64,000 nucleotides of DNA from an uncultured Prevotellaceae bacterium (GTDB lineage: Bacteria; Bacteroidota; Bacteroidia; Bacteroidales; Bacteroidaceae). Positions 4,507 to 50,294 of the stretch are shown one piece after another; the first letter of the stretch is position 1, and every line of letters starts with the position of its first letter. Made by a program: the position numbers and the translations under genes. A model generated the notes under the pieces. It was not told the origin of the DNA. It saw nothing but the letters and a program-made list of their open reading frames with translations, and ran no database searches. Location: positions 1-64,000 of the forward strand of contig CACXYH010000009.1 in assembly GCA_902771785.1 (NCBI GenBank). Direction: 5' to 3'.

Positions 4507-4672
4507 GCGAAAAGTCACTTTGGCTATGCCGAAGGGGAACTTTGGCTATGCCGAAGTGCCCCTTTGACCAAGCCGAAGGGGAACTTTGACCAAGCCGAAG
4601 GGGAACTTTGACCAAGCCGAAGGGGAACTTCGACTAGGCCGAAGTGCCCCTTCCACTATGGCAAAGTGACAC
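4507..4672. repeat. Intergenic tandem array A, 22-bp period
   Basis: About eight imperfect units whose CCGAAG-like anchors start at 4507, 4529, 4551, 4573, 4595, 4617, 4639 and 4661, an exact 22-bp step. The core unit reads GAAGGGGAACTTTGACCAA. The unit is closely related to that of the array at 33.4 kb (RAAGSGGWACTTTG). The array fills most of the 403-bp gap between GH43 and the CotH gene. There are no unique spacers and no coding potential. Confidence 0.9.
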
Positions 4673-4744
4673 CTACGAACAAAAAACGTACAGGAAAAGC
4701 AACGAAAGATGCCGCAAGTTGTCGTTTATTTCAGAAAATCTTTG

Positions 4745-4752
4745 TAATTTTG
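4745..4752 (+). promoter_or_regulatory. Bacteroidota -7 element of the CotH gene
   Basis: TAATTTTG matches the TAnnTTTG -7 consensus and lies 25 nt before the start codon. The -33 element is weak: only TTG at 4719-4721, slightly too far upstream. Confidence 0.6.
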
Positions 4753-4777
4753 CAGCCGCATTCTAATCAACAAAGCA

Positions 4778-7684
4778 ATGAGAAGGTTCCTACTAATAGC
4801 AGTCTGCTTCATCACAAGCTCATTAGTGCTTCTGGCCAAACCAAACTTCAACGGCAGCAAGAAGTACCACATCGTGTGTTCGCAGTTCCCTTCCGGCTGT
4901 GTCACCGACGGGACTACAGCCCAGCAAAACACCCCTTTATTCTACCTCAGCACCTCGAGCAAAGACGAGGAAACCTATTGGGTTATGACTGAAGAAAGCG
5001 ATGAAACGTTCACCATAAGAAACTCTAAGACAGGCCAATACGTCACCTACGACGGCGTACGCTCCGATAGTCCGCTTCGCAGATACATCAGCATGACCGC
5101 TGCCAAGGACGGCGACTACTCGCTGTGGACGTTTGCAGAGCAGGAAGAAAGCGTCTACACCATTCGCAATGTCGGTCAGCAAGACCACATCTGGGACGTC
5201 CGCACAGACAGCTACTGCGTAGGAACCTACTCCAAGGAAGGCGACTACGGCAGCAACCAGCGCTTCATGTTCTACGACGCCAGCGGCACGCTCGTCAAGG
5301 AAGCAGCAGGCAACACGCCCCCCACTACCGGTATCGACGTGTCGAGCTGGCTTGCCGGCACCACCGAATCGCCCAACGGCTGGACCGAAACGGGCGGATG
5401 GAGCAGCCCCTCCTTCGGAAACTATCGCAACCAAAACGCCTCCGTTGTCGTTCCCTTCCTTGAGAAATGGCAGGAGAACTGGTGGGGAGGCCTGGCTGAC
5501 TACTCGATTGAGCAAACGCTGACCAACCTGCCGGAAGGCAAATACAGCATCGAGGCCGACATCATTGCCACCCTGCAAAGCGGCGGCATCGGCACGCCGG
5601 CAACCGGCGTCTACTTCTTTGCCAACGAACAGCAGACAGAAGCCAGCACCTACAACGAGCGCCCCAAGCGCTATTCTATCGCCACAAACGTAGGCCAAGA
5701 CGGTACCCTCAACCTGGGCATCAGGCTCGAAAGCACGACTGCCAACTGGGTGGCCTTCGACAACCTGAAGCTTTCGTTCCTGGGAACTGCCGACCAACTC
5801 ATTGCCGGCGAAAAGGAGAAAGTGCGCCAGGAGCTGGCCGACTACTTCTCGAAAAGCGAAATCGAGGAGCTCATAGCCCAGGCAGGCGACAGTTTCGAGA
5901 GCCTGGAACAGGTGCGCAAGCTCATTGCCAACATGCCCACCAAAGACCCACTGAGCAAGGCGCTGGCCAACCTGACCATCGGACAACACGGACTGAGCTA
6001 CGTGGGCGACCTTGACTTCTACCTCTACACGCTGCCCCTCTCTGCGTTCGGCAGCAACTACGAGACCGTCATCACCTACGACAAGCAGGAAGGATGGGGC
6101 AATCTGAAGATCAACGGCATTGAGGTGCCCAGCGGTTCGAACTACACCTTCAGAAGCGTCAAGGGCGAGAAGAACTACACGTTCAGAGTAGCAAAGGATG
6201 ACGGAACGAGCATCAGTCGAAGCGTCACCTTCACGTCGCTGCCCGTCGTCCACCTCTACGGCTCGTTCAACAACGAATATAGCAAGGGAACCATCCAGGT
6301 GCAGGAGCCCGACAGAGACCAGCAAGACTGGTTCAACATGAAGGCCAAATGGCGTGGAGGCATCACCAACTCCAACGGAAAGCACAAGCGAAACTACCAC
6401 GTGAAGCTGCAGGACGCCAACGGCGAGAAGCTCGAACAGAAGTTCTTCGGGCTGCGCAACGACAACTCATGGATACTGGAGTCGTGCCAAGTAGACATGA
6501 GCCGCATCCGCAACCGCATACTCACCGACCTCTGGAACGACTTCAGCTCCAAGCCCTACTACATTGGCCAGGAGCCGAAAGCTATGACAGGCTCGCGCGG
6601 ACGCTTCGTCGAACTGGTGCTCAACGACGCTTATCAAGGCATCTACTGCATGACGGAGAACGTAGACCGCAAGCAGATGAAGCTGAAAAAGTATGACGAG
6701 GCTACGGGCGAAGTGCACGGCCAGCTGTGGAAATCGAAAGACTGGAGCTACGCCACGCTCATGGGAACCCGCCCCGACGGCGGATATTATCCGAAGGACT
6801 TCCTCTCTACACCGAACGAATACAGCGAGGCGTGGGACAACTACAACGTGAAGTACCCCGACATCGACGACGTGATACCCACCGACTGGAGCGTGCTCTA
6901 CGATGCCGTCAACTTCGTCTGCACAGCCAACAACACCGATTTCAAGAGGTACATCGGCGAATATTTCGACCTGCCCGTCGTCATCGACTACTACATTCTG
7001 ATGGAAACCATCCTCGCTACCGACAACCACGGCAAGAACATGTTCTTTGCCTGCTACGACAAACAGCAGGACAAGAAGATCACCTTCAGCGTGTGGGATA
7101 TGGATGCCACCAGCGGACAGCGCTGGAGCGACGACTATTATCACCAGTCCTTCCTCGGCCCTGAGCAGGACTACGCCACCTTCATCAGCAACTATGAGCA
7201 CGGCGACTACAACCTGTTCCGCCGTCTGCGCAACACCAACGCCGACGACTTCAACATGAAAGTGCGCCTGCGCTATCGCGACCTGCGGCAAACCTACCTG
7301 GCCACCGACGCCATCATCAAGCGCTTCGAGGACCAACTGAACGAGTTCAAGACCAACGGAGCCGCCCAGCGCGAGCACGACAGATGGAGCTTCGACAGCG
7401 ACGTAGCCCACCTCGAACTGAACTTCGACGAAGAAATGGAGTACCTGCGCGACTGGTTTACGCGCCGCATGGACTATCTCGACAAGACGCGCTTCGACAT
7501 TGCATCGCTGCCTTCGGGCATCAAGGGCGTGCAGACCGACGCCAGCAGCCAGCAGGTAGCCGTCTATTCGCTGGGCGGACAGAAGATTGCCATCGCCTCG
7601 CGCGACGAGCTGAAAGACCTCCTGCACACACTTCCCGCAGGAGTCTACATCGTCGACGGCAGGAAAGTGATCGTGGGAAAATAG
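4778..7684 (+). CDS. Secreted CotH-kinase family protein
   Basis: Large exported protein of 968 residues with a signal peptide (residues 1-20, ending LLAKPN). Residues about 25-150 resemble a beta-trefoil-like module, and about 180-330 a carbohydrate-binding-like beta-sandwich (PNGWTETGGWSSPSFGNYRN region). The CotH atypical kinase domain covers about 510-880, shown by GRFVELVLNDAYQGIYCMTE near 605-625, RKQMKLKK near 630, TDNHGKNMFFA near 747 and the WDMDATSG motif near 771. The last 50 residues (YSLGGQKI, LPAGVYIVDGRKV) look like a C-terminal sorting or adhesion tail. CotH kinases phosphorylate secreted proteins in Bacillus; the target here is unknown. It has its own promoter and stands upstream of serS with a 39-nt gap. 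Confidence 0.85.
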   Translation: MRRFLLIAVCFITSSLVLLAKPNFNGSKKYHIVCSQFPSGCVTDGTTAQQNTPLFYLSTSSKDEETYWVMTEESDETFTIRNSKTGQYVTYDGVRSDSPLRRYISMTAAKDGDYSLWTFAEQEESVYTIRNVGQQDHIWDVRTDSYCVGTYSKEGDYGSNQRFMFYDASGTLVKEAAGNTPPTTGIDVSSWLAGTTESPNGWTETGGWSSPSFGNYRNQNASVVVPFLEKWQENWWGGLADYSIEQTLTNLPEGKYSIEADIIATLQSGGIGTPATGVYFFANEQQTEASTYNERPKRYSIATNVGQDGTLNLGIRLESTTANWVAFDNLKLSFLGTADQLIAGEKEKVRQELADYFSKSEIEELIAQAGDSFESLEQVRKLIANMPTKDPLSKALANLTIGQHGLSYVGDLDFYLYTLPLSAFGSNYETVITYDKQEGWGNLKINGIEVPSGSNYTFRSVKGEKNYTFRVAKDDGTSISRSVTFTSLPVVHLYGSFNNEYSKGTIQVQEPDRDQQDWFNMKAKWRGGITNSNGKHKRNYHVKLQDANGEKLEQKFFGLRNDNSWILESCQVDMSRIRNRILTDLWNDFSSKPYYIGQEPKAMTGSRGRFVELVLNDAYQGIYCMTENVDRKQMKLKKYDEATGEVHGQLWKSKDWSYATLMGTRPDGGYYPKDFLSTPNEYSEAWDNYNVKYPDIDDVIPTDWSVLYDAVNFVCTANNTDFKRYIGEYFDLPVVIDYYILMETILATDNHGKNMFFACYDKQQDKKITFSVWDMDATSGQRWSDDYYHQSFLGPEQDYATFISNYEHGDYNLFRRLRNTNADDFNMKVRLRYRDLRQTYLATDAIIKRFEDQLNEFKTNGAAQREHDRWSFDSDVAHLELNFDEEMEYLRDWFTRRMDYLDKTRFDIASLPSGIKGVQTDASSQQVAVYSLGGQKIAIASRDELKDLLHTLPAGVYIVDGRKVIVGK

Positions 7685-7723
7685 CTGAAACGAAACAAAG
7701 AAACAAAAAACACTCATAAAGAA

Positions 7724-9043
7724 ATGCTTACACTTAAACTTATCACAGAAGAGACCGAACGCGTAATACGCGGGTTGGAGAAGAAACAATTCAAAGGAGC
7801 CAGAGAGGCTGTCAATGAAGTGCTGGCCGTAGACAAGCGTCGCCGCGAAGCCCAGCAGCAGCTCGACAAGAACCTGAACGAGCAGAAGCAGCAGTCGGGC
7901 CAGATAGGACGACTCATGAAGGAAGGCAAGCGCGAAGAGGCCGAGCAGGCCAAGCAGGCCGTGAGCGCCCTGAAAGAAAGCTCGAAGCAGCTGGAAGAGA
8001 CCATGAACCAGGCACAGGAAGAGATGACGCGCCTGCTCTGCCAAATCCCCAACATACCCTACGACGAAGTGCCCGAGGGCAAGGCTGCCGAAGACAACCA
8101 CGTGGTGAAGAGCAACCTGAGGGAATGCACACCCGACGACACCGTAGGCAACTGGACCACGAACCCCACGCTGGGCATCAACAATCCGCTGCCCCACTGG
8201 GAGCTGGCCAAGAAGTACAACCTCATCGACTTCGACCTCGGCGTCAAGATCACAGGTGCCGGCTTCCCCGTCTACATTGGTAAGGGTGCCCGCCTGCAGC
8301 GCGCCTTGATCAACTTCTTCCTCGACGAGGCCCGCAAGAGCGGCTATACCGAAATCATGCCGCCCACGGTGGTCAACGCCGCATCGGGCTATGGTACGGG
8401 TCAGCTGCCCGACAAGGAGGGCCAGATGTATCATTGCGAGGTCGACGACTTCTATCTGATACCTACCGCTGAGGTTCCCGTCACCAACATCTATCGCGAC
8501 GTCATTCTCGACGAAGCCCAGCTGCCCATCAAGAACTGCGCCTACACCGAGTGCTTCCGCCGCGAAGCAGGCTCTTATGGCAAGGACGTGCGCGGCCTGA
8601 ACCGCCTGCACGAGTTCTCGAAAATCGAGATCGTGCGCATCGATAAGCCCGAACACTCGAAGGAGAGCCACAAGGAGATGCTCGAACACGTGGAGGGACT
8701 GCTGAAGAAACTGGAGCTTCCCTACCGCATTCTGCTGCTTTGCGGAGGCGACCAGTCGTTCACTTCCAGCATCTGCTACGACTTCGAGGTCTACTCAGAA
8801 GCACAGGGACGCTGGCTCGAAGTGTCGTCGGTATCCAACTTCGACACCTATCAGGCCAACCGCCTGAAGTGCCGCTACCGTCGTGCCGACAACAAGAAGA
8901 CGGAGCTGTGCCACACGCTGAACGGCTCGGCACTGGCCTTGCCGCGCATCGTGGCCGCCCTGCTGGAGAACAACCAGACGGAGAACGGCATCCGCATCCC
9001 CGCAGCACTCGTGCCCTACACAGGCTTCGAGATGATTGATTAA
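7724..9043 (+). CDS. serS: Seryl-tRNA synthetase
   Basis: Cytoplasmic class II aminoacyl-tRNA synthetase that charges tRNA(Ser). The length (439 aa) is normal. The N-terminal half-arm is a long, Gln/Glu/Lys-rich antiparallel coiled coil (about 30-110) that grips the tRNA variable arm. Catalytic-core motifs follow: TAEVPVTNIYRD near 247, motif 2 FRREAGSYGKDVRGLNR near 278, and motif 3 GSALALPRIVAALLEN near 401. It starts with ATG after an A-rich leader. The gene ends in front of a short 22-bp-period repeat array. Confidence 0.98.
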   Translation: MLTLKLITEETERVIRGLEKKQFKGAREAVNEVLAVDKRRREAQQQLDKNLNEQKQQSGQIGRLMKEGKREEAEQAKQAVSALKESSKQLEETMNQAQEEMTRLLCQIPNIPYDEVPEGKAAEDNHVVKSNLRECTPDDTVGNWTTNPTLGINNPLPHWELAKKYNLIDFDLGVKITGAGFPVYIGKGARLQRALINFFLDEARKSGYTEIMPPTVVNAASGYGTGQLPDKEGQMYHCEVDDFYLIPTAEVPVTNIYRDVILDEAQLPIKNCAYTECFRREAGSYGKDVRGLNRLHEFSKIEIVRIDKPEHSKESHKEMLEHVEGLLKKLELPYRILLLCGGDQSFTSSICYDFEVYSEAQGRWLEVSSVSNFDTYQANRLKCRYRRADNKKTELCHTLNGSALALPRIVAALLENNQTENGIRIPAALVPYTGFEMID

Positions 9044-9058
9044 GGCACCTTTCGCATA

Positions 9059-9142
9059 GATTGAAGCCACTAATCCTACCGATTGAACGGACTAATCCCA
9101 CCGATTAGTCCGTTCAATCTATATCGCCCTCGCCACTAATGC
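9059..9142. repeat. Intergenic tandem array B, 22-bp period, with internal hairpin
   Basis: Units aligned on ACTAAT at 9069, 9091, (degenerate at 9113) and 9135; GATTGAA occurs at 9059 and 9081. The unit GATTGAACGGACTAATCCCACC is related to the arrays at 41.6 and 50.2 kb. Two units form a strong inverted repeat, GATTGAACGGACTAATC facing GATTAGTCCGTTCAATC (about 9081-9118), which could end serS transcription. Confidence 0.8.
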
Positions 9143-9176
9143 CACCCACTTAGTAGTAAAAAAACAGGGCGAATTC

Positions 9177-9207
9177 TTTGCAATATGCTTACTTTTTCGT
9201 ACCTTTG
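9177..9207 (+). promoter_or_regulatory. Promoter of the NfnAB-like gene
   Basis: TTTG at 9177-9180, a 19-nt spacer, then TACCTTTG at 9200-9207: a full match to the Bacteroidota -33/-7 consensus, 30 nt before the ATG at 9238. Its position rules out the longer in-frame start at 9178. Confidence 0.85.
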
Positions 9208-9237
9208 CACGAAATATTGGAACTAAACAAACGGAAT

Positions 9238-11592
9238 ATGAATAAAATTGTCAGGAAAGAGCAGTTCTCCGAAAAGGTTTATCTCTTCGAGATTGAGGCT
9301 CCCCTCATTGCCAAAAGCCGCAAGGCAGGCAACTTTGTGATTGTGCGCGTAGGTGCCAAGGGCGAACGCATGCCCCTCACCATTGCCGCTGCCGACGTTG
9401 AGAAAGGCACCATCACCCTGGTAGTGCAGAAGGTTGGCCTGTCGTCGACCAAACTTTGCGCCCTGAACGTGGGCGACTATGTGACCGATGTTGTAGGCCC
9501 GCTGGGCAATCCCACCCGCATCGAGAAGTACGGAACCGTGGTCTGTGCAGGCGGCGGACTGGGCGTCGCCCCCATGCTGCCCATCATTCAGGCCCTGAAG
9601 AAGGCCGGCAACCGAGTACTCTCGGTGATGGCAGGCCGCTCGAAAGACCTCATTATACTGGAAGATAAGGTACGAGAGTCGTCAGACGAAGTGATCATCA
9701 TGACCGACGACGGCTCATATGGCGAGAAGGGCGTCGTCACCATAGGCATCGAGAAGTTCATCGAACAGGAGCACGTCGACAAGGTTTTTGCCATCGGACC
9801 TCCCATCATGATGAAGTTCTCGAACCTCACCGCACAGAAGCACGGCATTCCCTGCGAGGTATCGCTCAACACGATTATGGTCGACGGTACCGGCATGTGC
9901 GGTGCTTGCCGACTGACCATTGGCGGCAAGACCAAGTTCGTGTGCATCGACGGTCCCGAGTTCGACGGCGCTCTGGTCGACTGGGACGAGATGTTCAAGC
10001 GCATGGGCACCTTCAAGAAAGCCGAGCAGGAGGAGATGGAACACTACGAGGAGCACCTTGGAACGGATAAATCCGAAAGCATCAAGCGCTCTGAGAACTC
10101 CGACATCGTCATGGACGACGACCCGACAAACGACACGATCGAGGTTCTCACCGACCGCAACGCCCCGTGGCGCGACGAGCTGCGCAAGAGCATGAAGCCC
10201 AAGGAGCGCACGCAGATTGAGCGCGTCGTCATGCCCGAACTCGACCCCGTCTATCGTGCCACCACCCGTACAGAGGAGGTAAACATCGGCCTGACCAAGG
10301 AGATGGCGATGACCGAGGCCAAGCGCTGCCTGGACTGCGCCAAGCCTACCTGCGTCGAAGGTTGCCCCGTGAACATCAACATACCCTCATTCATCAAGAA
10401 CATTGAGCGCGGACAGTTCCTGGCTGCCGCCAAAGTCCTGAAGGACACCTCTGCCCTACCCGCTGTCTGCGGACGCGTTTGCCCGCAAGAAAAGCAGTGT
10501 GAGAGCAAGTGCATACACCTGAAGATGAACGAGCCCGCCGTGGCCATTGGCTATCTGGAGCGCTTCGCCGCCGACTACGAGCGCGAGAGCGGCAACATCT
10601 CGCTGCCCGAAATAGCACCTGCTAACGGCATCAAGATTGCCGTCGTGGGCTCGGGCCCTGCCGGACTGAGCTTCGCCGGCGACATGGTGAAGAAGGGCTA
10701 CGACGTCTATGTGTTCGAAGCCTTACATGAGATTGGCGGTGTGCTGAAGTACGGCATCCCCGAGTTCCGCCTGCCAAACAAGATTGTCGACGTTGAAATC
10801 GACAACCTTGCCAAGATGGGCGTGCACTTCCAGACCGACGTCATCGTGGGCAAGACCATCAGCGTAGAGCAGTTGGAGAAAGAAGGCTTCAAGGGTATCT
10901 TCGTAGGCAGCGGCGCCGGTCTGCCCAATTTCATGGGAATTCCCGGCGAGAATGCCATCAACATCATGTCGTCGAACGAATACCTGACTCGAGTGAACCT
11001 GATGGATGCTGCCAATCCGAAGACCGATACGCCCATCAATCTGGGTAAGCACGTGCTGGTCGTAGGCGGTGGCAATACCGCTATGGACTCTTGCCGCACG
11101 GCCAAGCGACTGGGTGCCGAGGTGACGTTAGTCTATCGTCGCTCGGAGGCCGAAATGCCGGCACGACTCGAGGAAGTGAAGCATGCCAAGGAAGAAGGCA
11201 TCGACTTCCTGACGCTCCACAACCCCATCGAGTACATTGCCGATGAGCAAGGTGCCGTGAAGCAGGCCGTGCTGCAGGTCATGGAGCTGGGCGAGCCCGA
11301 TGCCTCCGGACGTCGTTCGCCCGTACCCGTCGAGGGAAAGACGGTGACGCTCGACGTCGACCAGGTGATTGTTGCCGTGGGCGTAAGCCCCAATCCGCTG
11401 GTTCCGAAGAGCATCGAGGGCCTGGAGCTGGGCCGGAAGAACACCATCGCCGTGAACGAAGGCATGCAGTCGAGCCGAGCCGAAATCTTTGCCGGCGGCG
11501 ACATCGTGCGTGGCGGTGCCACCGTTATCCTGGCTATGGGCGACGGCCGTCGTGCTGCACTCAACATGGACAAGCATCTGCGCGGAGAATAA
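9238..11592 (+). CDS. Fused ferredoxin-NADP reductase/GltD-type flavoprotein (NfnAB-like)
   Basis: Bifunctional electron-transfer flavoprotein of 784 residues, usually annotated as dihydroorotate dehydrogenase B NAD-binding subunit fused to an NADPH-dependent glutamate synthase small chain. The N-terminal part (1-280) has the FAD/NAD fold and a [2Fe-2S] site (GTGMCGACRL near 217, C at FVCIDG). The C-terminal part carries a double [4Fe-4S] region (CLDCAKPTCVEGCP near 361-376) and two dinucleotide-binding motifs (VVGSGPAGLSFAG near 469, VVGGGNTAMDSC near 608). In NfnAB this fold bifurcates electrons between NADH, NADPH and ferredoxin; that role is likely here but not proven. The start was chosen from the promoter position. 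Confidence 0.88.
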   Translation: MNKIVRKEQFSEKVYLFEIEAPLIAKSRKAGNFVIVRVGAKGERMPLTIAAADVEKGTITLVVQKVGLSSTKLCALNVGDYVTDVVGPLGNPTRIEKYGTVVCAGGGLGVAPMLPIIQALKKAGNRVLSVMAGRSKDLIILEDKVRESSDEVIIMTDDGSYGEKGVVTIGIEKFIEQEHVDKVFAIGPPIMMKFSNLTAQKHGIPCEVSLNTIMVDGTGMCGACRLTIGGKTKFVCIDGPEFDGALVDWDEMFKRMGTFKKAEQEEMEHYEEHLGTDKSESIKRSENSDIVMDDDPTNDTIEVLTDRNAPWRDELRKSMKPKERTQIERVVMPELDPVYRATTRTEEVNIGLTKEMAMTEAKRCLDCAKPTCVEGCPVNINIPSFIKNIERGQFLAAAKVLKDTSALPAVCGRVCPQEKQCESKCIHLKMNEPAVAIGYLERFAADYERESGNISLPEIAPANGIKIAVVGSGPAGLSFAGDMVKKGYDVYVFEALHEIGGVLKYGIPEFRLPNKIVDVEIDNLAKMGVHFQTDVIVGKTISVEQLEKEGFKGIFVGSGAGLPNFMGIPGENAINIMSSNEYLTRVNLMDAANPKTDTPINLGKHVLVVGGGNTAMDSCRTAKRLGAEVTLVYRRSEAEMPARLEEVKHAKEEGIDFLTLHNPIEYIADEQGAVKQAVLQVMELGEPDASGRRSPVPVEGKTVTLDVDQVIVAVGVSPNPLVPKSIEGLELGRKNTIAVNEGMQSSRAEIFAGGDIVRGGATVILAMGDGRRAALNMDKHLRGE

Positions 11593-11606: not shown

Positions 11607-11644
11607 TATTTCCAATAATACGAACCTCATAAACAATAACAAAC

Positions 11645-12575: not shown

Positions 12576-12579
12576 TATT

Positions 12580-32167: not shown

Positions 32168-33448
32168 ATGACATTTGAAGAAACCTATCTGAATGACAAC
32201 ATCCTCGATGCACTCTATGACATGCATTTCGAGACGATGACACCCATACAAGAAAAGTGTATTCCGGAAATTCTCGACGGTAACGATGTTTTAGGCGTAG
32301 CCCAGACGGGCACAGGAAAGACGGCAGCCTACCTGCTGCCTATCCTCTCGATGCTCGACGACGGGGGCTTCCCCGAAGATGCCATCAACTGTGTCGTCAT
32401 GTCGCCTACACGCGAACTGGCACAACAGATTGACCAGGCTATGGAAGGATTCTCCTACTATCTCGACGGCATCAGCTCGATTGCTGTCTACGGTGGCAAC
32501 GACGGCATCCGTTTCGACCAGGAAATGAAAGGACTTCGAGGCGGAGCGCCCGTGGTCATCGCTACGCCAGGACGACTGCTTAGCCACCTGAAGATGGGCA
32601 ATCTCGACCTTTCGCGCACCTCGTTCTTCGTGCTCGACGAAGCAGACCGAATGCTTGACATGGGCTTCTCCGAGGACATACTTGCCATCAACAAGCTTCT
32701 GCCGTCAACATGCCAGAAAATCATGTTCTCGGCAACCATGCCCGATAAGATAAGAGAGCTGGCCGTCAGCCTGTTGCATAACCCTGTTGAAGTGAAGATT
32801 GCCGTCAGCAAACCTGCCGAGAAAATCCAACAGTCGGCCTATATCTGCTATGAACCGCAGAAGGTGGGCATCATCGAGCACCTCTTCAAGAACGACGACC
32901 TGAAGCGCGTCATCATATTCTGCGGTAAGAAAGACCGCGTCAAGGACATCAACCGTGCCCTGCGCAAGCTCAACATCAACTGTGCGCCGATGCATAGCGA
33001 CCTGACACAAGCAGAACGCGACGAGGTGATGTACAAGTTCAAGGCTGGACACATCGACGTACTCGTAGCTACCGACATCGTCAGCCGCGGCATTGACATT
33101 GACGACATACAGATTGTAATCAACTTCGATGTGCCTCGCGACAGCGAAGACTATGTTCACCGCATTGGACGAACAGCGCGAGCCGACCGCGACGGACGTG
33201 CCATCACCTTCGTCAGCGAACGAGACATGACCTACTTTCAGCAGATAGAGAGTTTTCTGGAGAAAACCATTGAGAAGACTCCCCTACCCGATGGATTAGG
33301 CGAAGGCCCTGAATACAAGGCAGCACCCAAGAAAGCATCGGCCAAGAAGCACAGAAGAAATAGTAAAGGCCGCTCACAACGAGGACGAGACAAACGCGGC
33401 AACGGACGGAAAAGCCGCAACAAGTCCAATAACAAAGCGGCAGTTTAG
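32168..33448 (+). CDS. DEAD-box ATP-dependent RNA helicase
   Basis: RNA helicase of the RhlE-like group, 426 residues. Motifs in order: Q motif (MTPIQEKCIPEIL), motif I AQTGTGKTAAYL, Ia PTRELAQQ, Ib TPGRLL, motif II DEAD in FVLDEADRMLDMGF, motif III SATMP, and motif VI HRIGRTAR. A 65-residue Lys/Arg-rich tail follows (KKHRRNSKGRSQRGRDKRGN), probably for RNA contact. The last codons (NKAAV, stop) already form the first unit of the downstream 22-bp-period array. Confidence 0.95.
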   Translation: MTFEETYLNDNILDALYDMHFETMTPIQEKCIPEILDGNDVLGVAQTGTGKTAAYLLPILSMLDDGGFPEDAINCVVMSPTRELAQQIDQAMEGFSYYLDGISSIAVYGGNDGIRFDQEMKGLRGGAPVVIATPGRLLSHLKMGNLDLSRTSFFVLDEADRMLDMGFSEDILAINKLLPSTCQKIMFSATMPDKIRELAVSLLHNPVEVKIAVSKPAEKIQQSAYICYEPQKVGIIEHLFKNDDLKRVIIFCGKKDRVKDINRALRKLNINCAPMHSDLTQAERDEVMYKFKAGHIDVLVATDIVSRGIDIDDIQIVINFDVPRDSEDYVHRIGRTARADRDGRAITFVSERDMTYFQQIESFLEKTIEKTPLPDGLGEGPEYKAAPKKASAKKHRRNSKGRSQRGRDKRGNGRKSRNKSNNKAAV

Positions 33449-33556
33449 CACACGCAAAGCGGTACTTTGGCACACACAAAGCGGCACTTTGGCACTCAAA
33501 AAGCGGTACTTTGGCACACACAAAGCGGTACTTTGACATCGTCGAAGTGCCGCTTC
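33434..33556. repeat. Tandem array C, 22-bp period, starting inside the helicase gene end
   Basis: AAAGCGG anchors at 33434, 33456, 33478, 33500 and 33522, with a degenerate GAAG at 33544, stepping exactly 22 bp. The core is AAAGCGGTACTTTGGCACAC. The first unit includes the helicase stop codon. The unit is related to array A (RAAGSGGWACTTTG). Confidence 0.9.
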
Positions 33557-39907: not shown

Positions 39908-41497
39908 ATGACCGCAAAACAAACAATCGAAGCAGGCAAAGCCATTCTCGGCATCGAGTTCGGCTCCACCCGCATCAAAGCCGTTCTCATCGACGAGGAC
40001 AATAAGCCTATTGCACAGGGAAGCCACGAGTGGGAGAACCAGCTCGTAGACGGACTCTGGACCTACTCTACCGAAGCCATCTGGTACGGACTGCAGGACT
40101 GCTACGCCGAACTGCGCAAAGACGTGCTCAAGCAGTACGACTGCGAAATAGAAAGCCTCGCCGCCATCGGCTTCTCGGCCATGATGCACGGCTACATGGC
40201 CTTCAACAAGGAGCAGCAGATACTCGTGCCCTTCCGCACCTGGCGCAACACCAACACAGGCAAGGCTGCTGCCGAGCTGTCGAAGCTCTTCAACTACAAC
40301 ATCCCCCTGCGCTGGAGCATCTCACACCTCTACGAGGCCATCCTCGACAACGAGGAGCACGTCAGCGACATCAAGTACCTGACCACGCTGGCAGGCTACG
40401 TACATTGGCAGGTAACCGGCCAGTTCGTGCTCGGCGTGGGCGACGCTTCAGGCATGCTGCCCGTAGACCCAGAGACCAAGACCTACGATGCCGAGATGGT
40501 GCGCAAGTTCGACGAGCTGATAGCTCCGCGCGGCTTCTCGTGGAAGCTACTCGACATTCTGCCCCGCTCGCTGAGCGCCGGCGTCAACGCAGGCTTCCTG
40601 ACACCCGAGGGCGCCAAGCGCCTCGACGTCAGCGGCCATCTGAAGGCAGGCATCCCCGTTTGTCCGCCCGAAGGCGACGCCGGAACGGGCATGGTGGCCA
40701 CCAACGCCGTGAAGCAGCGCACGGGCAACGTGTCGGCCGGCACCTCGTCGTTCTCGATGATTGTGCTCGAGAAGCCCCTGTCGAAGCCCTATGAGCCCAT
40801 CGACATCGTCACCACCCCCGACGGAAGCCTCGTGGCTATGGTCCACTGCAACAACTGCACCAGCGACATCAATGCCTGGGTAGGCCTGTTCAAGGAGTTC
40901 CAGCAGCTCATGGGCATGCCTGTCGACATGAACGAGCTCTACGGCAAGCTGTTCAACAAGGCCCTCGAGGGCGACACCGACTGTGGCGGCCTGATGGCCT
41001 ACAACTACGTGTCGGGCGAGCCCGTCACCGGTCTGCAGGAGGGTCGTCCGCTGTTCGTGCGCTCGGCCAACGACAAGCTCAACCTGGCCAACTTCATGCG
41101 TGCCCACCTCTACGGCGCCATCGGCGTGCTAAAAATTGGCAACGACATCCTGCTGAAGGAAGAGCAGGTGCGCGTAGACCGCATCACCGGCCACGGCGGC
41201 TACTTCAAGACCGCAGGCGTTGGTCAGCGCATGCTGGCTGCTGCCCTCAACTCGCCCATCTCCGTCATGGAGACCGCCGGCGAGGGTGGCGCATGGGGCA
41301 TCGCCCTGCTGGCTGGCTATGTGGTGAACAACCCCAACAAGCTGTCGCTGGCCGACTATCTTGAGGAGGTCGTCTTCGCAGGCAACACAGGCGTGAGCAT
41401 TGCTCCCACCGCCGAAGATGTGGCCGGCTTCAACCGCTACATCGAGAACTACAAGCGCTGTCTGCCCATTGAGCAGCAGGCTGCCAGCTGCAAGTAA
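39908..41497 (+). CDS. araB: FGGY-family carbohydrate kinase, probable L-ribulokinase
   Basis: Sugar kinase of the actin-like ATPase superfamily, 529 residues. The N-terminal phosphate-1 motif is GIEFGSTRIKAVLID, and the catalytic-base region MHGYMAFNKEQQ and C-terminal GYFKTAGVGQRMLAAAL and GGAWGIALLAGY segments are present. Residues GTSSFSMIVLEK form the adenosine region. It differs from the enteric AraB, but its position after araD-araA makes ribulose phosphorylation the obvious role; xylulokinase activity cannot be excluded. Confidence 0.87.
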   Translation: MTAKQTIEAGKAILGIEFGSTRIKAVLIDEDNKPIAQGSHEWENQLVDGLWTYSTEAIWYGLQDCYAELRKDVLKQYDCEIESLAAIGFSAMMHGYMAFNKEQQILVPFRTWRNTNTGKAAAELSKLFNYNIPLRWSISHLYEAILDNEEHVSDIKYLTTLAGYVHWQVTGQFVLGVGDASGMLPVDPETKTYDAEMVRKFDELIAPRGFSWKLLDILPRSLSAGVNAGFLTPEGAKRLDVSGHLKAGIPVCPPEGDAGTGMVATNAVKQRTGNVSAGTSSFSMIVLEKPLSKPYEPIDIVTTPDGSLVAMVHCNNCTSDINAWVGLFKEFQQLMGMPVDMNELYGKLFNKALEGDTDCGGLMAYNYVSGEPVTGLQEGRPLFVRSANDKLNLANFMRAHLYGAIGVLKIGNDILLKEEQVRVDRITGHGGYFKTAGVGQRMLAAALNSPISVMETAGEGGAWGIALLAGYVVNNPNKLSLADYLEEVVFAGNTGVSIAPTAEDVAGFNRYIENYKRCLPIEQQAASCK

Positions 41498-41516: not shown

Positions 41517-41560
41517 GCTCCGCGTTCATATCCTTTGCATATAAACGCGGAGCTTTTTTT
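41517..41560 (+). terminator. Rho-independent terminator of the arabinose operon
   Basis: GCTCCGCGTT (41517-41526) pairs with AACGCGGAGC (41544-41553), extended inward by ATAT pairs, and is followed by seven T (41554-41560). Confidence 0.92.
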
Positions 41561-41720
41561 CATCGCGCCGATGAGCAACCTTCATCGCGCCGATGACCAC
41601 CCTTCGTCGCGCCGATGAGCAACCTTCATCACGCCGATGAGTACCGCTAATCGCGCCGATTAGTACCGTGAATCCCCCCGATTAGTCCCGTGAATCCCCC
41701 CGATTGGTTCCTTGTATCGG
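41561..41720. repeat. Tandem array D1, 22-bp period
   Basis: Seven units anchored on CGCCGA or CCCCGA at 41566, 41588, 41610, 41632, 41654, 41676 and 41698. The unit drifts gradually from CATCGCGCCGATGAGCAACC to AATCCCCCCGATTAGTCCCG. The last units are the reverse complement of the 50.2-kb array (GGATTCACGGGACTAATCG). The array begins directly after the terminator T-run. Confidence 0.92.
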
Positions 41721-41744
41721 CTGTGGGCTCCACCTTGAGGTTGG

Positions 41745-41880
41745 CGAGCTACCGGTTCGTCGGCCTCGAGCTACCGGTTCGTCAGCCTCCTACTGCCGGT
41801 TCGTGGGTCTCCTACTAACGGTAAGAGGGTCGACTACTAACGGGTCGCGGGCGGCTGAAGCCGGTTCTTGCCCCTCCTTT
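41745..41880. repeat. Tandem array D2, 22-bp period, different unit
   Basis: Six units anchored on CCGG or ACGG at 41752, 41774, 41796, 41818, 41840 and 41861 (last step 21). The core is GCTACCGGTTCGTCAGCCTC. It has a different sequence from D1 immediately upstream but the same period. Together D1 and D2 fill most of the 503-bp gap between araB and the DUF2461 gene; I see no gene in the gap. Confidence 0.85.
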
Positions 41881-42000: not shown

Positions 42001-42675
42001 ATGATGAATAACAACCGCCCTTGGTTCATGGAACATAAGGACGAGTATGAGGCCGTGAGGGCTGAATGGGAACAGGGCGTGGCTCAAGCGCTGGAACGCA
42101 TCACGACCTTCGACGAGAGCATCGGCAACCTACGAGTGAAAGACTGTACTTACCGGTTCTATCGTGACACGCGCTTCTCGGCCGACAAGTCGCCCTATAA
42201 GAACCACTTCGGAGCCTACATCAACGCGAAAGGCAAGAAGGCACTTCGCGGCGGCTACTACTTGCACTTGGAGCCCGAAGGCTGCCTGCTGGCCGTTGGC
42301 AACTACTGGCTGCCGACGAACATTCTGACGGCCTGCCGCAACGAAATCATGGCCAACGAAGAGGAATGGCTGAAGTGCGTAGAGAGCCGGCAGTTCAAGA
42401 AGTACTTCACAGGGAAGAAGGAAACGACGTCATGGGAGGAGTCGTGGAGCGAGCCACAGGGCTTCGGACTGACGAAACTGAAGACCTGCCCCGCCGGATT
42501 TCCGCGTGACTATGAGCACGTTAAGTATCTTCGGCTGAAGGACTACTGTGCCTGGCACCACGTGGCCGACGACTTCTTCGAGGGCGACGGCTGGCTCGAC
42601 GAGATGGACCGCATCTTCAAGGCAGCGAAGCCGATGATGGACTTCATGAACAACGTCATCGACGACTACGAATAG
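42001..42675 (+). CDS. DUF2461 (TIGR02453) family protein
   Basis: Conserved protein of unknown function, 224 residues from the ATG at 42001. The family's opening motif FLxxLxxNNNRxWF is split by the annotated start: FLREV is encoded in frame just upstream of MMNNNRPWF, but an in-frame stop at 41944 and the lack of a standard start there leave the N-terminus short. Later family segments are FYRDTRFSADKSPYKNHFGA, GGYYLHLEPEGCLLAVGNYW and a C-terminal helical part. An ATG at 41954 in another frame (MISLHDSEF) may be the original start, lost to a frameshift. Confidence 0.85.
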   Translation: MMNNNRPWFMEHKDEYEAVRAEWEQGVAQALERITTFDESIGNLRVKDCTYRFYRDTRFSADKSPYKNHFGAYINAKGKKALRGGYYLHLEPEGCLLAVGNYWLPTNILTACRNEIMANEEEWLKCVESRQFKKYFTGKKETTSWEESWSEPQGFGLTKLKTCPAGFPRDYEHVKYLRLKDYCAWHHVADDFFEGDGWLDEMDRIFKAAKPMMDFMNNVIDDYE

Positions 42676-42697: not shown

Positions 42698-44208
42698 CGA
42701 CCCAGCTTATTGACATACTTCACTGGCGGCTCGCCGTCGCTCTTCAGCACATCGGCAAAGGTCTGAGGAGTGACGGTGACTCGTCCTTTCATGAACTCAG
42801 GAATGTTGTAGCTGCGCATCAGCTGACGATGATAGTCGGGGTCGGCCTGCGGCAGTTCGAAGGGTCGCGTGGCGCGGCCTTCCTTGTCGACGTGGGCAAT
42901 AAAGGGACGCGTGTAGCCACCATCGTCGCGACGCGAGCTGAACACAATCCAGCGCCCGTTGCTCGACCAAGAGTGGTAGCTCTCCGTGTCGTCGGAGTTC
43001 ACCTCGTTCATAGCCCGCAGGCTGTCGGTGGCCAGGTCGAGCATCCACAGGTCGGCGTCACGATGCCAGATGTGAAAGCATCCCCAGCCTCCAAGGGTGA
43101 AGAGCAGGAAGCGTCCGTCGGGCGAGATGCGTGGCAGCGTGGCGCTCTTGTCCTGAGCAGCAGCATCGAACACCATTTCACGCTGTCCGAACTGGCGCGT
43201 CTCTGGGTCGAAGCTTTTCTTGTAGATGCTGTACTTCACCTCGTAAGCCCGCTGAATGGTTTCTATCTCGGCCGAAACCGTGTCGCGAAACTCGAAGTGG
43301 GCGCTGCAGAAGTAGAGCGTCTTGCCGTCGGGGGCCCAGAAAGGGAACACCTCAAACTCGTCGTCGGTCTTCTCAATATTGGTCACCTCATTGCGGTCCA
43401 CGTCGTAGGCAATGAGGTCGCTGGCCGAGTCGAACACTTCTATCTTATTAAGGTCGCGCGTATGGAAGGTCTGCCCCGTCTTGTTGGTAGAATAGACGAT
43501 CAGCTTCAACCAAGGATGCCACGTAGGATAGACGCCGGCAGAGAGAATAGAGTCGTTCTTCATGTTGATCTTCTTCACCTCCCCGTCGTAGACGATCACC
43601 GTGCCGCCGTGGTTCTGGCGGGCATGAAACTGCATGCGCTCAGGGTTGTACTGCTGATAGTTGTGGCAGTTGATGCACTGGCCCTGCTCCTCGGTAGTGC
43701 ACAGCATGTTGTCGTAGACCACGCTTTCGTCGTAGTTCTCCAAGCAGCGCTGGTTGATGGTCAGGTCTTCGTAGGCCACGTACGAGGGCGAGATGAGTCG
43801 ATAGCTCAGGTAGGGGTCGATAGAATCGGGCGACACGTGAATGCTGAAGGGCTTGTGGAGCGTCCACTGCCCTGCCCTCTCGGCATAGACTTCCACGCTG
43901 ATGCTCTTGCCTGAAGCCTTGGCGGTCAGGTCGCGCCAGTCGTCGAGGTCGGGCTGAGCCTTGCCTTGACACACAATCTCGTCGTCGCCGAAGCTGTAGC
44001 GGGCCACCATATCGTCAGCTCCGTCGTCCATCTGGAAAGTCAGGGGTGCTATGTTCACGGGCACCGTCACGTCGATATAGTCAGGATATATCTTGGGCAG
44101 TTGCTCGCTCTTGACATACTGTTCGGGCACGTGGGCCGAGTGGCAGGCCGCCAGCAAGAGGGGTAATGCACCACATATAATCATTCTAAAGAAGTCTTTC
44201 GTCTTCAT
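42694..44208 (-). CDS. PD40 beta-propeller lipoprotein with a c-type haem motif
   Basis: Envelope lipoprotein of 504 residues with lipobox LLAAC (C22). A CINCH sequence at 178-182 is a canonical CXXCH haem-attachment motif. Residues about 195-480 contain TolB/PD40-like propeller repeats, for example VYPTWHPWLKLIVYSTNK, VFPFWAPDGKTLYFCSAH, LPRISPDGRFLLFTLGGW and YHSWSSNGRWIVFSSRR. The function is unknown; a haem-bearing sensor or electron carrier docked on a propeller is plausible. It lies 14 nt downstream of the DUF6057 gene in one operon. Confidence 0.85.
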   Translation of the reverse strand: MKTKDFFRMIICGALPLLLAACHSAHVPEQYVKSEQLPKIYPDYIDVTVPVNIAPLTFQMDDGADDMVARYSFGDDEIVCQGKAQPDLDDWRDLTAKASGKSISVEVYAERAGQWTLHKPFSIHVSPDSIDPYLSYRLISPSYVAYEDLTINQRCLENYDESVVYDNMLCTTEEQGQCINCHNYQQYNPERMQFHARQNHGGTVIVYDGEVKKINMKNDSILSAGVYPTWHPWLKLIVYSTNKTGQTFHTRDLNKIEVFDSASDLIAYDVDRNEVTNIEKTDDEFEVFPFWAPDGKTLYFCSAHFEFRDTVSAEIETIQRAYEVKYSIYKKSFDPETRQFGQREMVFDAAAQDKSATLPRISPDGRFLLFTLGGWGCFHIWHRDADLWMLDLATDSLRAMNEVNSDDTESYHSWSSNGRWIVFSSRRDDGGYTRPFIAHVDKEGRATRPFELPQADPDYHRQLMRSYNIPEFMKGRVTVTPQTFADVLKSDGEPPVKYVNKLGR

Positions 44209-44222
44209 AACGCTTGTCGTTT

Positions 44223-46064
44223 TTAGTATAGTTTCTGGTTCCTGATGAGGAAGTATTCATAATAGAAGGTGCCGCCAAAGCGCGGATAGAAGATGGGCTT
44301 CATCTGCTCTTCGCTCATTCCGGCACAGCGCTTGGCCAACGCCATGAACTCCTGATAGTCCTGCACAACCTCACGGTCGAAGGGCATGCGACTGATGTCG
44401 ACCGTATGCTCGAGGTTGCCATAAAGCAGCGCAGCCTCCTGATAGTGTCGCGGTATGTGCTGACCTTTGTGCAGCTCGGCATAATGGAAGAAGTGAGGCC
44501 AGAACAGCTGAATATCTTTCATCCAGAGCGACCCCAGCAACGTGAGCTCCTGAAGCACGGGGTCGTTGCTGTCGCCATAAGCAAAGTGGCGCATGAGGAA
44601 GTACTCCACCAGTCCGTTGTCGCTGGTCAGCAGGTCGTCGTAGGCCATGACGGGAAATACGGGCCCGTACTCAGGATCTTTCTTCATCGCGTCGCGATGG
44701 CCTATGAAGCTCGCCTGACGGTCGGCCCAGGCACGGCCGTAGAGACTGCTGCGCAGAATATTGATATACTTCAGGGCTACCTGCTCCTCGCCGTTCATCA
44801 TGGCACAGCGCGTCAGATATTTGTAGTACTCCGTACACCAGCCATGCTCCACGCCGTCTTCCAGACACCAGCGATAACAGTAGTTCAGCTGACCATAATG
44901 GAAATAGATGGCACGACCCACGACCTGCGCCATGTTCACGGAGATGGGGGTAGCGCTGGGCTTGGCACCTGTACGATAGTGATACATCTCGTCGCCCTGA
45001 CGTCCCAGACGGAACAAGGCCAGGTTCTTCATCATCACGATAGCACGTGTAGGTTCGTCGTCGAGCTGAGCGGCCTCACGCACAATGCCGTTCCAGTCGA
45101 GTTCCTCCATGTAGTGACTCATGCGAAGCTCCTTATGGAAGTTGAAGTCCTTATACCAGAAGTGCCACGTAGCCACACTCACCACCAACAGCACACCCAT
45201 CTGGAGCATAAGCTGCAGCGCAGGCTTCTTCGGCTCAGGCTGCTGTCCGCTCCGATAGCACACAGCCATGAGCAGCAACACGGCCACTAATAAATAATAA
45301 GGAATATAGTAGTTGGGATAGCTTTCGGCGATGGCAAACACGGGAAGCACAGCCACGTAGATGTCGTCGATGTTCGTCTGATAGAACACGAAGCGATAGT
45401 AGAGCAGCGGAAAAGCCACCGCACTGAGCAGCGCCAAGAGCATCGTTGCGGCCTTCATGCCTTTGCCCATGTCGTCGAGCCGCCAGGTGAGCACAGCCAT
45501 CAGGGCCACGGCCAGCAATGCATAGAAGCCTGCCAGAGGATAGAACAAGGCAGGGGTCAGCACTACGAGCACCTGCCGCAGGAAGAACTTCGAAGGCAGG
45601 CTACGGAAAGCCCATGTCAAAGCCACAGCCAGCACCACGCCCAGCGTGGGAATGAAGAACCAGCCGCGCAGCTTCAGGTAGTAAACCCAGTAGTCCATCG
45701 TCACGTTGGCCAGCAGTAGCAGCGCTATGGGCACCACCGTGAGTACGAGCCAGTGGGCAGGAAGGCGGAACGCCTTGGCCAGCAGCCAGGCCAACAGCAC
45801 CCACCAGCCACAGAGCATCGACACGCCCAACCAGGGATGATAGAAGAACTGCGTGAAGAACTGGCCCAGATACATGAGCATGCCGCCAGGCACTATCATC
45901 TGTTGCTTGAAGAAAAGGGAGGTGTTGAGAAACAGGTTTAGCTCCTGAACCTTCCAGAGATAGTCGCGTTCGTAGGTCAGCAGCACGCCCGCAACTACCA
46001 GCAGCAGCACTACCGCTACTGCTACGGGAAGCTTCTTGAAATGAATTTTCAGTATCTTGCTCAT
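44223..46064 (-). CDS. DUF6057 family multi-pass membrane protein
   Basis: Bacteroidota-specific protein of unknown function, 613 residues. About nine hydrophobic helices occupy residues 12-300, beginning LPVAVAVVLLLVVAGVLL. The C-terminal half (310-613) is soluble and helical, resembling TPR-like pairs (REAAQLDDEPTRAIVMMKNLA, CAMMNGEEQVALKYINILR). It is the first gene of the operon with the haem-motif propeller lipoprotein, a pairing that suggests a joint role. Confidence 0.83.
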   Translation of the reverse strand: MSKILKIHFKKLPVAVAVVLLLVVAGVLLTYERDYLWKVQELNLFLNTSLFFKQQMIVPGGMLMYLGQFFTQFFYHPWLGVSMLCGWWVLLAWLLAKAFRLPAHWLVLTVVPIALLLLANVTMDYWVYYLKLRGWFFIPTLGVVLAVALTWAFRSLPSKFFLRQVLVVLTPALFYPLAGFYALLAVALMAVLTWRLDDMGKGMKAATMLLALLSAVAFPLLYYRFVFYQTNIDDIYVAVLPVFAIAESYPNYYIPYYLLVAVLLLMAVCYRSGQQPEPKKPALQLMLQMGVLLVVSVATWHFWYKDFNFHKELRMSHYMEELDWNGIVREAAQLDDEPTRAIVMMKNLALFRLGRQGDEMYHYRTGAKPSATPISVNMAQVVGRAIYFHYGQLNYCYRWCLEDGVEHGWCTEYYKYLTRCAMMNGEEQVALKYINILRSSLYGRAWADRQASFIGHRDAMKKDPEYGPVFPVMAYDDLLTSDNGLVEYFLMRHFAYGDSNDPVLQELTLLGSLWMKDIQLFWPHFFHYAELHKGQHIPRHYQEAALLYGNLEHTVDISRMPFDREVVQDYQEFMALAKRCAGMSEEQMKPIFYPRFGGTFYYEYFLIRNQKLY

Positions 46065-46089
46065 TGGCTTTCTTGTCGTTTTATTGCTG

Positions 46090-46097
46090 CAAAGGTA
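46090..46097 (-). promoter_or_regulatory. -7 element of the DUF6057 operon
   Basis: TACCTTTG on the minus strand (46097-46090), 26 nt upstream of the start codon. No clear -33 TTTG was found. Confidence 0.6.
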
Positions 46098-46116
46098 TAA
46101 AATAATTATGAAATAG

Positions 46117-46148
46117 TTTGCGGTTCTAACAGAAAATGATTAATTTTG
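46117..46148 (+). promoter_or_regulatory. Promoter of the beta-galactosidase locus
   Basis: TTTG at 46117-46120, a 20-nt spacer, then TAATTTTG at 46141-46148; 30 nt to the ATG at 46179. The promoter is intact although the gene is broken. Confidence 0.8.
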
Positions 46149-46178
46149 TGGCATAAAACAAACCTAACTATACAACTT

Positions 46179-49222
<3,044 letters not shown>

Positions 49223-49226
49223 CATC

Positions 49227-50126
49227 ATGTACAGATTATCGTTTGTGCTGGTAGCGGCCTTCGTGTCGCTATCAGCACTTTCTCAAACCACACTACTGAA
49301 GCAGCGAAAGTTTCCACGCGACATTCCTGCAGGCAATTACAGCGGAGTGACGCCATTAGGCAACGGGCGCTTTGCCGTAGTAAACGACAAGTCGGCAGAA
49401 GACGGTTTCTACATCTTCAGCATCGACATCGACTCGCTGTCAAACTGCATTCGCTCGGCCAGAAACGAGGGCTTCGTAAGTAGTGGGAAAAACAACAGCG
49501 ACCTGGAGGCAATTGCCTTCTGCCCTAACTCAGGCACGCTCTTCATGGCCAGCGAAGCAAAAAGCGAGGTGCTGGAATACAACCTGACCGGACAGCCAAC
49601 AGGCCGCAGTCTGCCCCTGCCCGCGGTATTCAAAAAGGCTTCAGAGAATTGTGGCATCGAGTCGCTCACCTTTGGCCACCAACGATTCTACGTCACCACC
49701 GAGCGACCGTTGCCTGGCGACTCGCTGTTGCGCATCCAGTCGTTCGACAGCCAGCTAAAGTGTAGCAAGCAATACTTATACAGACCAGACGGACAAACGC
49801 TAAAAAAAGGCTATTGGGGAGTGAGCGAGCTGTGCGCCCTAAACGACGGGCGGCTACTCATACTCGAACGGGAAATACGAGTGCCCAAACTGAAAATAGG
49901 CGCACAAGCCCTTATCAAAATCTATGCTACACGTCCTGCTGAGGCCGACACCTTGCAGAAAGAACTGCTCTGCCAGTTCAAAACCCGCCTCACGCTGACC
50001 TCTCGCCGCTTCGCCAACTACGAAGGAATGTGCGAAGCGCGTCCTGGCCTGCTGCTATTGATTGCCGACTCGCAGAACCGATACAAGGGTTTTCTACGCG
50101 ATTGGCTACTCACCATCTCGCTCTAA
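49227..50126 (+). CDS. Secreted esterase-like phytase-family protein
   Basis: Exported beta-propeller of 299 residues with a signal peptide ending ALSQT. The sequence matches the 'esterase-like activity of phytase' domain: GVTPLGNGRFAVVNDKSAEDGFY, DLEAIAFCPNSGTLFMASEAK, GIESLTFGHQRFYVTTERPL and GVSELCALNDGRLLILERE repeat as blades. The substrate is unknown. It starts 4 nt after the beta-galactosidase stop, so both share a transcript; the ATG at 49227 is chosen because the longer frame overlaps that gene. Confidence 0.85.
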   Translation: MYRLSFVLVAAFVSLSALSQTTLLKQRKFPRDIPAGNYSGVTPLGNGRFAVVNDKSAEDGFYIFSIDIDSLSNCIRSARNEGFVSSGKNNSDLEAIAFCPNSGTLFMASEAKSEVLEYNLTGQPTGRSLPLPAVFKKASENCGIESLTFGHQRFYVTTERPLPGDSLLRIQSFDSQLKCSKQYLYRPDGQTLKKGYWGVSELCALNDGRLLILEREIRVPKLKIGAQALIKIYATRPAEADTLQKELLCQFKTRLTLTSRRFANYEGMCEARPGLLLLIADSQNRYKGFLRDWLLTISL

Positions 50127-50156
50127 GCAAAAGATTCTTTATTGATTAGTGCCATA

Positions 50157-50294
50157 CATCGGCAGAATTAAAGAAACCAATCGACTGGATTCACGGCACC
50201 AATCGATTGGATTCACGGGACTAATCGACTGGATTCACGGGACTAATCGACTGGATTTACGGGACTAATCGACTGGATTCACGGGATGAATCTA
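50157..50294. repeat. Tandem array E, 22-bp period
   Basis: AATCGACTGG anchors at 50179, 50201, 50223, 50245 and 50267, with degenerate copies at 50157 and 50289: exact 22-bp steps. The unit GATTCACGGGACTAATCGAC matches array D1 on the opposite strand and array B. The last unit reaches the stop codon of the minus-strand gene at 50292. Confidence 0.92.

Follow-up and report, generated by a model that had tools for sequence, protein, structure and literature searches.

Tandem arrays with a period of 22 bp are the commonest intergenic repeats by far in the genome of the uncultured Prevotellaceae bacterium investigated here, and in many cases their units are interrupted palindromes. The inverted arms (AAAG/CTTT, AATC/GATT or GCAC/GTGC) and the pitch are kept, and the 5-bp centre and the 9-bp spacer drift. 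Arrays are rare near gene starts and densest in convergent gaps. We give an even chance to the reading that they are two-turn (22 bp) rows of mirror-image motifs which serve as side-by-side docking sites for a putative dimeric DNA-binding protein. The array class is larger than a preliminary description of the same DNA stated, and the palindromic units, the flipped centres, the polarity of the arrays and the avoidance of gene starts go beyond that description.

The window, by which the whole analysed stretch of 64,000 nucleotides is meant, contains six arrays, all located between genes, and Tandem Repeats Finder (TRF) assigned each of them a period of 22 (or 44/66). When the sequence was written out with 22 letters per row, the register given in the preliminary description was confirmed, one 21-bp step included. 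Its view that the period belongs to the class and not to one copied sequence was also borne out, as several arm families with unlike unit sequences share the same pitch. Two arrays, listed like the other four without a strand, belong to the AAAG/CTTT family (F1). The array at 4507..4671 (TRF 4501-4652; about 7 units of 22 bp) is flanked by a GH43 gene (2296-4374) and a CotH gene (4778-7684), had further matches in the rest of the genome in a genome search, and contains the cores GAAG-GGGAA-CTTT and GAAG-TGCCC-CTTY, i.e. the centre in both orientations. Directly before it, at 4424-4475, is an imperfect palindrome (GCACTGCAAT ... ATTGCAGTGC) with an opposite-strand self-match of 83% over 52 bp, perhaps the terminator of the GH43 gene. 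The other F1 array, at 33432..33556 (TRF 33432-33535; about 6 units), runs into the 3′ end of a DEAD-box helicase frame (32168-33448) by approximately 17 bp, and the centre of its last unit is inverted (GAAG-TGCCG-CTTC).

The AATC/GATT family (F2) is represented by a short array of 2.2 copies at 9059..9106, directly following the seryl-tRNA synthetase gene (7724-9043), and by an AATC-N5-GATT array of 5 core units in a convergent gap at 50157..50286 (TRF 50179-50286). The arms switch within the row at 41559..41705, located after an FGGY carbohydrate kinase gene (39908-41497), where both arm sides changed together from CATC/GATG to AATC/GATT. A polarity set by the replichore was rejected, given that F2 units occur in opposite orientation within 9 kb (41559 and 50157). 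The array at 41749..41860 (TRF 41749-41843), of the ACCGG/AACGG family and with a weak palindrome, precedes a DUF2461 gene (42001-42675); it advances in steps of 22 bp except for the closing step of 21 bp (CGG box 41839 to 41860), as read in rows of 22.

The abundance of the class was assessed in an 840-kb sample of the genome to which the window belongs (G000; 3.29 Mb, 123 contigs), the window included, with a TRF score of at least 55 as the cut-off for arrays and a simple hexamer model for gene calls. A period of 22, 44 or 66 was found in 58 of the 108 tandem arrays of this sample. Intergenic positions were occupied by 55 of these 58, two were on a gene edge and one was in a gene; the arrays with periods 15, 18, 21 and 24 in the same sample were mostly genic. 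The earlier statement that no array lies inside a gene body thus holds for the window and fails for the sample, where 2 of 58 reach the edge of a gene and 1 of 58 is in frame in a gene for a DUF6298 protein. One of the 58 arrays, C3:92357-92767 with its 66-bp unit, may fall outside the class. This array and that at C6:5181-5367 (43-bp units), the latter less than 100 bp from a 22-bp array, are longer and near-identical, with 94 and 93% matches, respectively.

In lag spectra, which count 22-bp windows with at least 17 matches at each lag, intergenic DNA displayed 28.87 windows per kb at lag 22, 1.5 at lag 21 and 0.05 at lag 23, and the next-best intergenic lag that is not a multiple of 22 was lag 14, at 2.4 windows per kb. 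A chance origin of the 22-bp arrays is ruled out by these spectra. The preliminary description held that a broad spread of periods would speak against it; in the own genome, 22 bp was far ahead of the other intergenic periods. Some stretches of the sample (C28, C36, C48, C49 and C9:64001-80000) had been chosen for similarity matches, which is a sampling bias; without them 52 of the 58 arrays were left in approximately 749 kb, a density that corresponds by extrapolation to about 230 arrays in the whole genome.

The F1 unit in the own genome has a 7-5-7 layout, two inverted arms around a 5-bp centre, with a 3-bp linker. The 125 strict cores RAAG-N5-CTTY were detected in 27 runs, of which 2 were single, and the 98 successive distances of at most 90 bp were 22 (n = 92), 44 (n = 5) and 66 (n = 1). 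Looser AAG-N5-CTT pairs at most 100 bp apart occurred at 22 (n = 110), 44 (n = 85), 66 (n = 61) and 88 (n = 40), making 296 pairs at these four distances compared to 10 at all others. The F1 half-site reads G-N-C-R-AAG, followed by the 5-bp centre, and the 3-bp linker is nearly without information; the information at AAG/CTT in the F1 logos is there by construction, because the search pattern fixes AAG and CTT. The outer R and Y were nearly independent (79 of 136 paired, 66.9 expected, SD 5.9). Both orientations of the centre were present, CGGCA (n = 43) and TGCCG (n = 23). For F2 (AATC-N5-GATT), all 26 successive distances were 22, and 9 of the 20 runs were single, seven of these single matches being outside arrays. 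The pitch was also evident when any pairs of 4-bp arms around 5 bp were compared and at least 3 differences outside the arms were demanded: the own genome contained 50 such pairs at distance 22 and a mean of 0.56 at the other distances from 16 to 34.

By a dyad score the arrays exceeded permuted columns at p ≤ 0.05 in 22 of 58 cases (mean 3.66 vs 2.57), and a palindrome test on the consensus unit was significant in 13 of 58. The arms co-vary within arrays, with 137 of 219 cells paired (94.5 expected, SD 6.0), and do so likewise in the arrays of relatives (161 of 242; 111.8 expected, SD 6.6) and in 21-bp arrays (128 of 209; 85.8 expected, SD 6.1). This co-variation fits a paired structure or template switching too.

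Distinct sequences made up 86 of the 110 F1 spacers of 9 bp, with 5.2 of 9 bases shared between adjacent spacers. The preliminary description had rejected CRISPR for the lack of unique spacers, and this ground did not survive, as the strict core recurs at 22 bp with mostly distinct spacers; the rejection itself was upheld on other grounds. CRISPR arrays have direct repeats of about 21-48 bp and unique spacers of about 25-40 bp. Here, the repeat is 13 bp (up to 19), the spacer is 9 or 3 bp, and the repeat is present in both orientations within one array. A gene scan of the ten window genes adjoining the arrays or one further out identified no cas family.

Called intergenic gaps harboured 53 of 57 arrays. 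Relative to random placement within the same gaps, the number of array edges at most 50 bp from a gene start was low (4 vs 11.1 expected, SD 2.5), and 27 edges were at most 50 bp from a gene end (23.7 expected, SD 2.4). Convergent gaps contained 14.3 arrays per 10 kb, and the other gap types 4.0-6.7.

Genome pairs allowed the parts of the unit to be compared over time. Between G158 and G144, which are about 95% identical over long blocks, six orthologous arrays were aligned in which no 22-bp unit had been gained or lost, and one of the six contained a 1-base indel. Another array, with a 22-bp step (TTTTCATGA), had more copies in G359 (L291) than in G158 and G144 (L289, L290). In five F1 or GCAC-family arrays from two genome pairs, one further array (G144/G359) being unalignable and left out, the changed positions between related genomes were 0 of 92 in arms, 8 of 65 in centres, 13 of 170 in spacers and 82 of 1000 in flanks (Fisher p = 0.0016, arms vs centre plus spacer). 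Judged from these changes, the arms appear to be kept and the centre and spacer to drift at about the rate of the flanks, which is how protein half-sites behave.

The single array inside a gene is an F1 array in frame in the gene for a 1019-residue DUF6298 protein (L016:10242-10367, i.e. G000 C2:50242-50367). Among the 39 homologues aligned, out of 120 listed, an 81% identical protein has 22 residues (66 bp, three units) fewer at the place of the array. A 99% identical protein displays CPF → GHF at the array, as a TGCCC → GGGCA flip of the centre predicts, and a recent flip between the two 99% identical proteins is probable from the protein letters.

Exact centre flips were found in 36 of 195 neighbouring pairs of F1 units in G000, and the arrays proved to be polar, with the centres pointing one way to the left of the switch and the other way to its right. 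This applied to 14 of 16 mixed arrays in G000 (p = 0.004; 11 of 13 without the match-chosen stretches) and to 21 of 23 in G390 (p = 6.6e-5; the first places among those listed), the arrays of G390 not being independent because spacers are common to them. Such polarity could arise if an array grew from an inverted founder pair, or from a protein assembly with two-fold symmetry. The complementarity of mirror-placed spacers, out of 9 bases, was 5.18 in G390 (5.37 for random) and 3.50 in G000 (3.66 for random). In G200, multi-unit arrays with identical spacers were seen on several contigs, as if whole arrays had been copied.

The distribution of the class was followed in named loci around the seryl-tRNA synthetase gene (80 kept of 594 found) and in stretches of other genomes. 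Relatives contained 22-bp arrays with quite other palindromes, e.g. AAAGTTGTACAACTTT, GTCCGAAGGCTTCGGAC and TGTACATAGCCTATGTACA. When loci were pooled, lag 22 came first in the Prevotella-like and Bacteroides-like ones; in 258 kb of sequence from other families of this order, 0 windows were counted at lag 22. For 13 single relatives, sampled at 40-100 kb each, lag 22 was leading in four (G016, G010, G006 and G308) and tied in G071; lag 21 was leading in G008, G262 and G084, lag 23 in G003 and G004, and lag 24 in G009 and G109, and G007 had none at lag 22 in its sample of this size. Lags 21, 23 or 24 were thus leading more often than 22 among these 13. Repeats of another class, stepping by 7, 14 or 21 bp (e.g. 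CAACACC, AACTCCT), were common in L306-L311, G003, G006-G009 and G084.

The places of the arrays differ between species. The array at 9059..9106 was not found in 9 listed relatives in which seryl-tRNA synthetase is followed directly by the same gene, and none of the matches listed spans the arrays at 41559-41860. The preliminary description had made its case depend on the presence of such arrays in close relatives; arrays of the class were present in relatives, with 22 leading in 4 and tied in 1 of 13 small samples, and none of the relatives' arrays was found at the same places as those of the window.

Runs of three successive F1 cores spaced 22 bp apart were detected in 86 of 398 genomes of the genus, in one genome at as many as 338 places, and the reversed control pattern in 28 of 398, mostly at few places with the exceptions of G355 (n = 266) and G374 (n = 46). 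Over the phylum, the F1 triple was present in 1 of 148 genomes, the window's own, in a sample which held no other genome from the order of the window's genome. F2 pairs were found in 6 of 150 genomes, with 84 places in the window's own. The genome G390 (L284, L333-L360) displayed dispersed four-unit arrays of up to about 180 bp by similarity. Eighteen stretches were from IMG/VR, and every unit had AAAG/CTTT arms only in L313 and in L322/L329; L322 and L329 are one contig (IMG/VR 2558860931_000002) with the centre CATAG throughout and unlike spacers. Searching phage and plasmid records with a G390 array gave no match under the limits applied, and with so few all-AAAG/CTTT stretches a viral origin was rejected.

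If the rows are docking sites, a dimer would read the two inverted arms of one unit, the dimers next to it would face the same side of the helix and bind with cooperativity, and a single site would be of little use and hence be lost. Between transcription units, and chiefly where convergent genes end, a bound row would be a roadblock or insulator in both directions, or would anchor the nucleoid. A row of cooperatively bound dimer sites that share one helix face is the simplest account of the pitch, the kept arms, the free centres and spacers, the rare lone F1 cores and the avoidance of gene starts, and the earlier suggestion that the units present the same helix face to a protein remains the best-fitting reading. 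As in phased arrays generally, the pitch stays near whole helical turns whatever the spacer, the exceptions being the 21-bp step and the 1-base indel, and conserved half-sites with free spacers were found in five arrays. The stems are read as DNA and not as RNA because G.T (n = 26) and C.A (n = 27) are about equally frequent on their sense strand. Since the arms differ between species, the specificity of the protein, or the paralogue used, would change between lineages. Several observations speak against docking sites: the arms differ so widely between arrays and species that one protein would not easily read them, lone runs are frequent in F2 (9 of 20), the palindromes are significant in a minority of arrays and the pitch is not absolute. 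The same holds for the co-variation of arms, the lead of lags 21, 23 or 24 over 22 in most single relatives, the small number of arrays (five) behind the constraint test, and the single-strand folds of window arrays. Two candidate binders were rejected. HU-HIG proteins, an idea reportedly stemming from a 2017 survey of HU proteins, had 3-14 copies in 13 F1-rich genomes and 2-22 in 14 genomes without the F1 triple, and AsnC/Lrp proteins, with 1-4 vs 2-3 copies, did not follow F1.

The arrays may alternatively be neutral or selfish palindromic repeats, a less likely reading and yet the main and a serious rival, in which both units and entire arrays multiply and disperse, are tolerated away from promoters and genes, and need no host protein. 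It comes with the equally doubtful proposal that the centres flip by template switching at palindromes and that the 22-bp pitch was inherited from a founding inverted pair. Copying is suggested by the whole multi-unit arrays with identical spacers on several G200 contigs, and flipping by the two centre orientations, the 36 exact flips in 195 neighbouring pairs and the probable recent flip in DUF6298; growth from an inverted pair would give the centre polarity of 14/16 arrays in G000 and 21/23 in the listed places of G390, and the placement also fits tolerance. Against this reading, the arms are constrained and centre and spacer are not, lone F1 cores are rare, unrelated arm families of different lineages occur at the same period, and a Y1/RAYT transposase was not found in the genome. 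A mechanism in which 13-bp units inserted one by one, each duplicating 9 bp of target, is likewise disfavoured by the rare lone F1 cores and the unlike spacers.

That the rows work by structure, as RNA hairpins or DNA cruciforms (terminator, RNA stability, supercoil buffer) whose pairing is kept, is unlikely. The 22-bp pitch is not required by pairing, G.T pairs are without strand bias, and the outer bases of the two arms vary almost independently. AAAG/CTTT stems that enclose 5 bp are weak, the complementarity of spacers in mirror positions does not exceed that of random ones, and Rfam had 0 matches in the window at gathering scores. These points are set against the co-variation of arms within arrays, the preference for convergent gene ends and the single-strand folds of four window arrays, which beat shuffles (z −6.4 to −3.2), as palindromic arrays would do anyway. 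RNA hairpins in particular were rejected, strand asymmetry being absent in the stems. Plain minisatellites made by replication slippage, with 22 bp as a mutational preference, are very improbable, despite near-identical units in some arrays (C4:5090-5188, 100% matches) and unit numbers that differ between homologues: a single intergenic period dominates, spacers diverged at constant pitch, the arms are conserved and six aligned orthologous arrays are without unit gain or loss. The fixed-step copying process that the preliminary description offered as its alternative is weakened for similar reasons, as the pitch outlives spacers and centres, no unit changed in the six orthologous arrays and the arms alone are conserved; the 1-base indel in one of the six and the 66 bp fewer in the DUF6298 homologue point the other way.

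Extended further, the docking-site reading would make the rows a chromosome-wide lattice in Prevotella and relatives, with hundreds of rows, a polymerising dimer, an arm specificity that turns over, a 22-bp geometry that stays, and two-way insulators as the outcome; this extension is speculative. The comparison of such a lattice to insulator or nucleosome-positioning DNA, of which it might be the bacterial counterpart, is a similarly doubtful one. If a protein binds the rows, it would be a hitherto undescribed chromosome-organising or transcription-insulating factor in a leading genus of the gut and rumen, with a binding geometry readable from the sequence. If no protein does, these are repeats whose spacing outlives their sequence, beyond what simple slippage gives. 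The pitch, the arms and the flipping centres give direct tests either way.

A literature search, mostly outside subscription journals, found no description of a class of palindromic arrays with a fixed 22-bp pitch. Phased operator arrays, such as plasmid iterons or the sites of BvgA, whose dimers bind 7-bp inverted half-sites, have steps of about 22 bp. They resemble the arrays here in that sites two helical turns apart share one face, and differ in being located at an origin or at promoters, whereas the arrays here are dispersed throughout the genome and keep away from gene starts.

The nearest described systems are REP/BIME, BrickBuilt and PINSR. REPs carry GTAG or CGTC tags, occur also single or in dimers, and are associated with Y1 transposases (PMC3733652). 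Like the arrays here, REP/BIME are short extragenic palindromes in many copies, grouped, with arms free of the centre; no fixed 22-bp pitch is described in the passages cited (PMC3733652). The GTAG/CGTC tag was not found beside the F1 core: the information at flank positions −10 and −11 is 0.04 bit, and G-N-C stands at −9 to −7. The Y1 transposase family PF01797 had 0 matches in the window's assembly (97.8% complete) and matches in 5 of 14 control genomes, and REP/BIME with a RAYT was rejected on the absence of the transposase from this assembly.

BrickBuilt is a minisatellite within a MITE of Porphyromonas gingivalis, described in the cited passages as one sequence family of 23-nt units to which a leader segment, a tail segment and short terminal inverted repeats belong (PMC4596501). 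It belongs to the same order and is likewise intergenic, with near-22-nt units, imperfect copies, many loci and variable copy number. Its period is 23, compared to 22 here (28.87 windows per kb at lag 22 vs 0.05 at lag 23), and its one sequence family differs from the many unrelated arm families found here at one period. When the genome was searched with one array and its surroundings (404 bases), the matches to other arrays were confined to the array and its near edge.

The Prevotella intermedia/nigrescens group has an intergenic repeat of 188 bp, PINSR, present in four related species in 177-184 copies per genome (PMC4755523). According to the passages cited, it is without terminal inverted repeats, about three quarters of its places are common to two strains, and its function was left open by the authors (PMC4755523). 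Compared by description only, it is one 188-bp sequence, with neither a 22-bp pitch nor palindromes mentioned in these passages (PMC4755523). It resembles the arrays here in being intergenic and in many copies, and 188 is close to 8.5 × 22. The dispersed arrays of G390 (up to about 180 bp) recall PINSR (188 bp, about 180 copies). The array class described here may bear on both BrickBuilt and PINSR.
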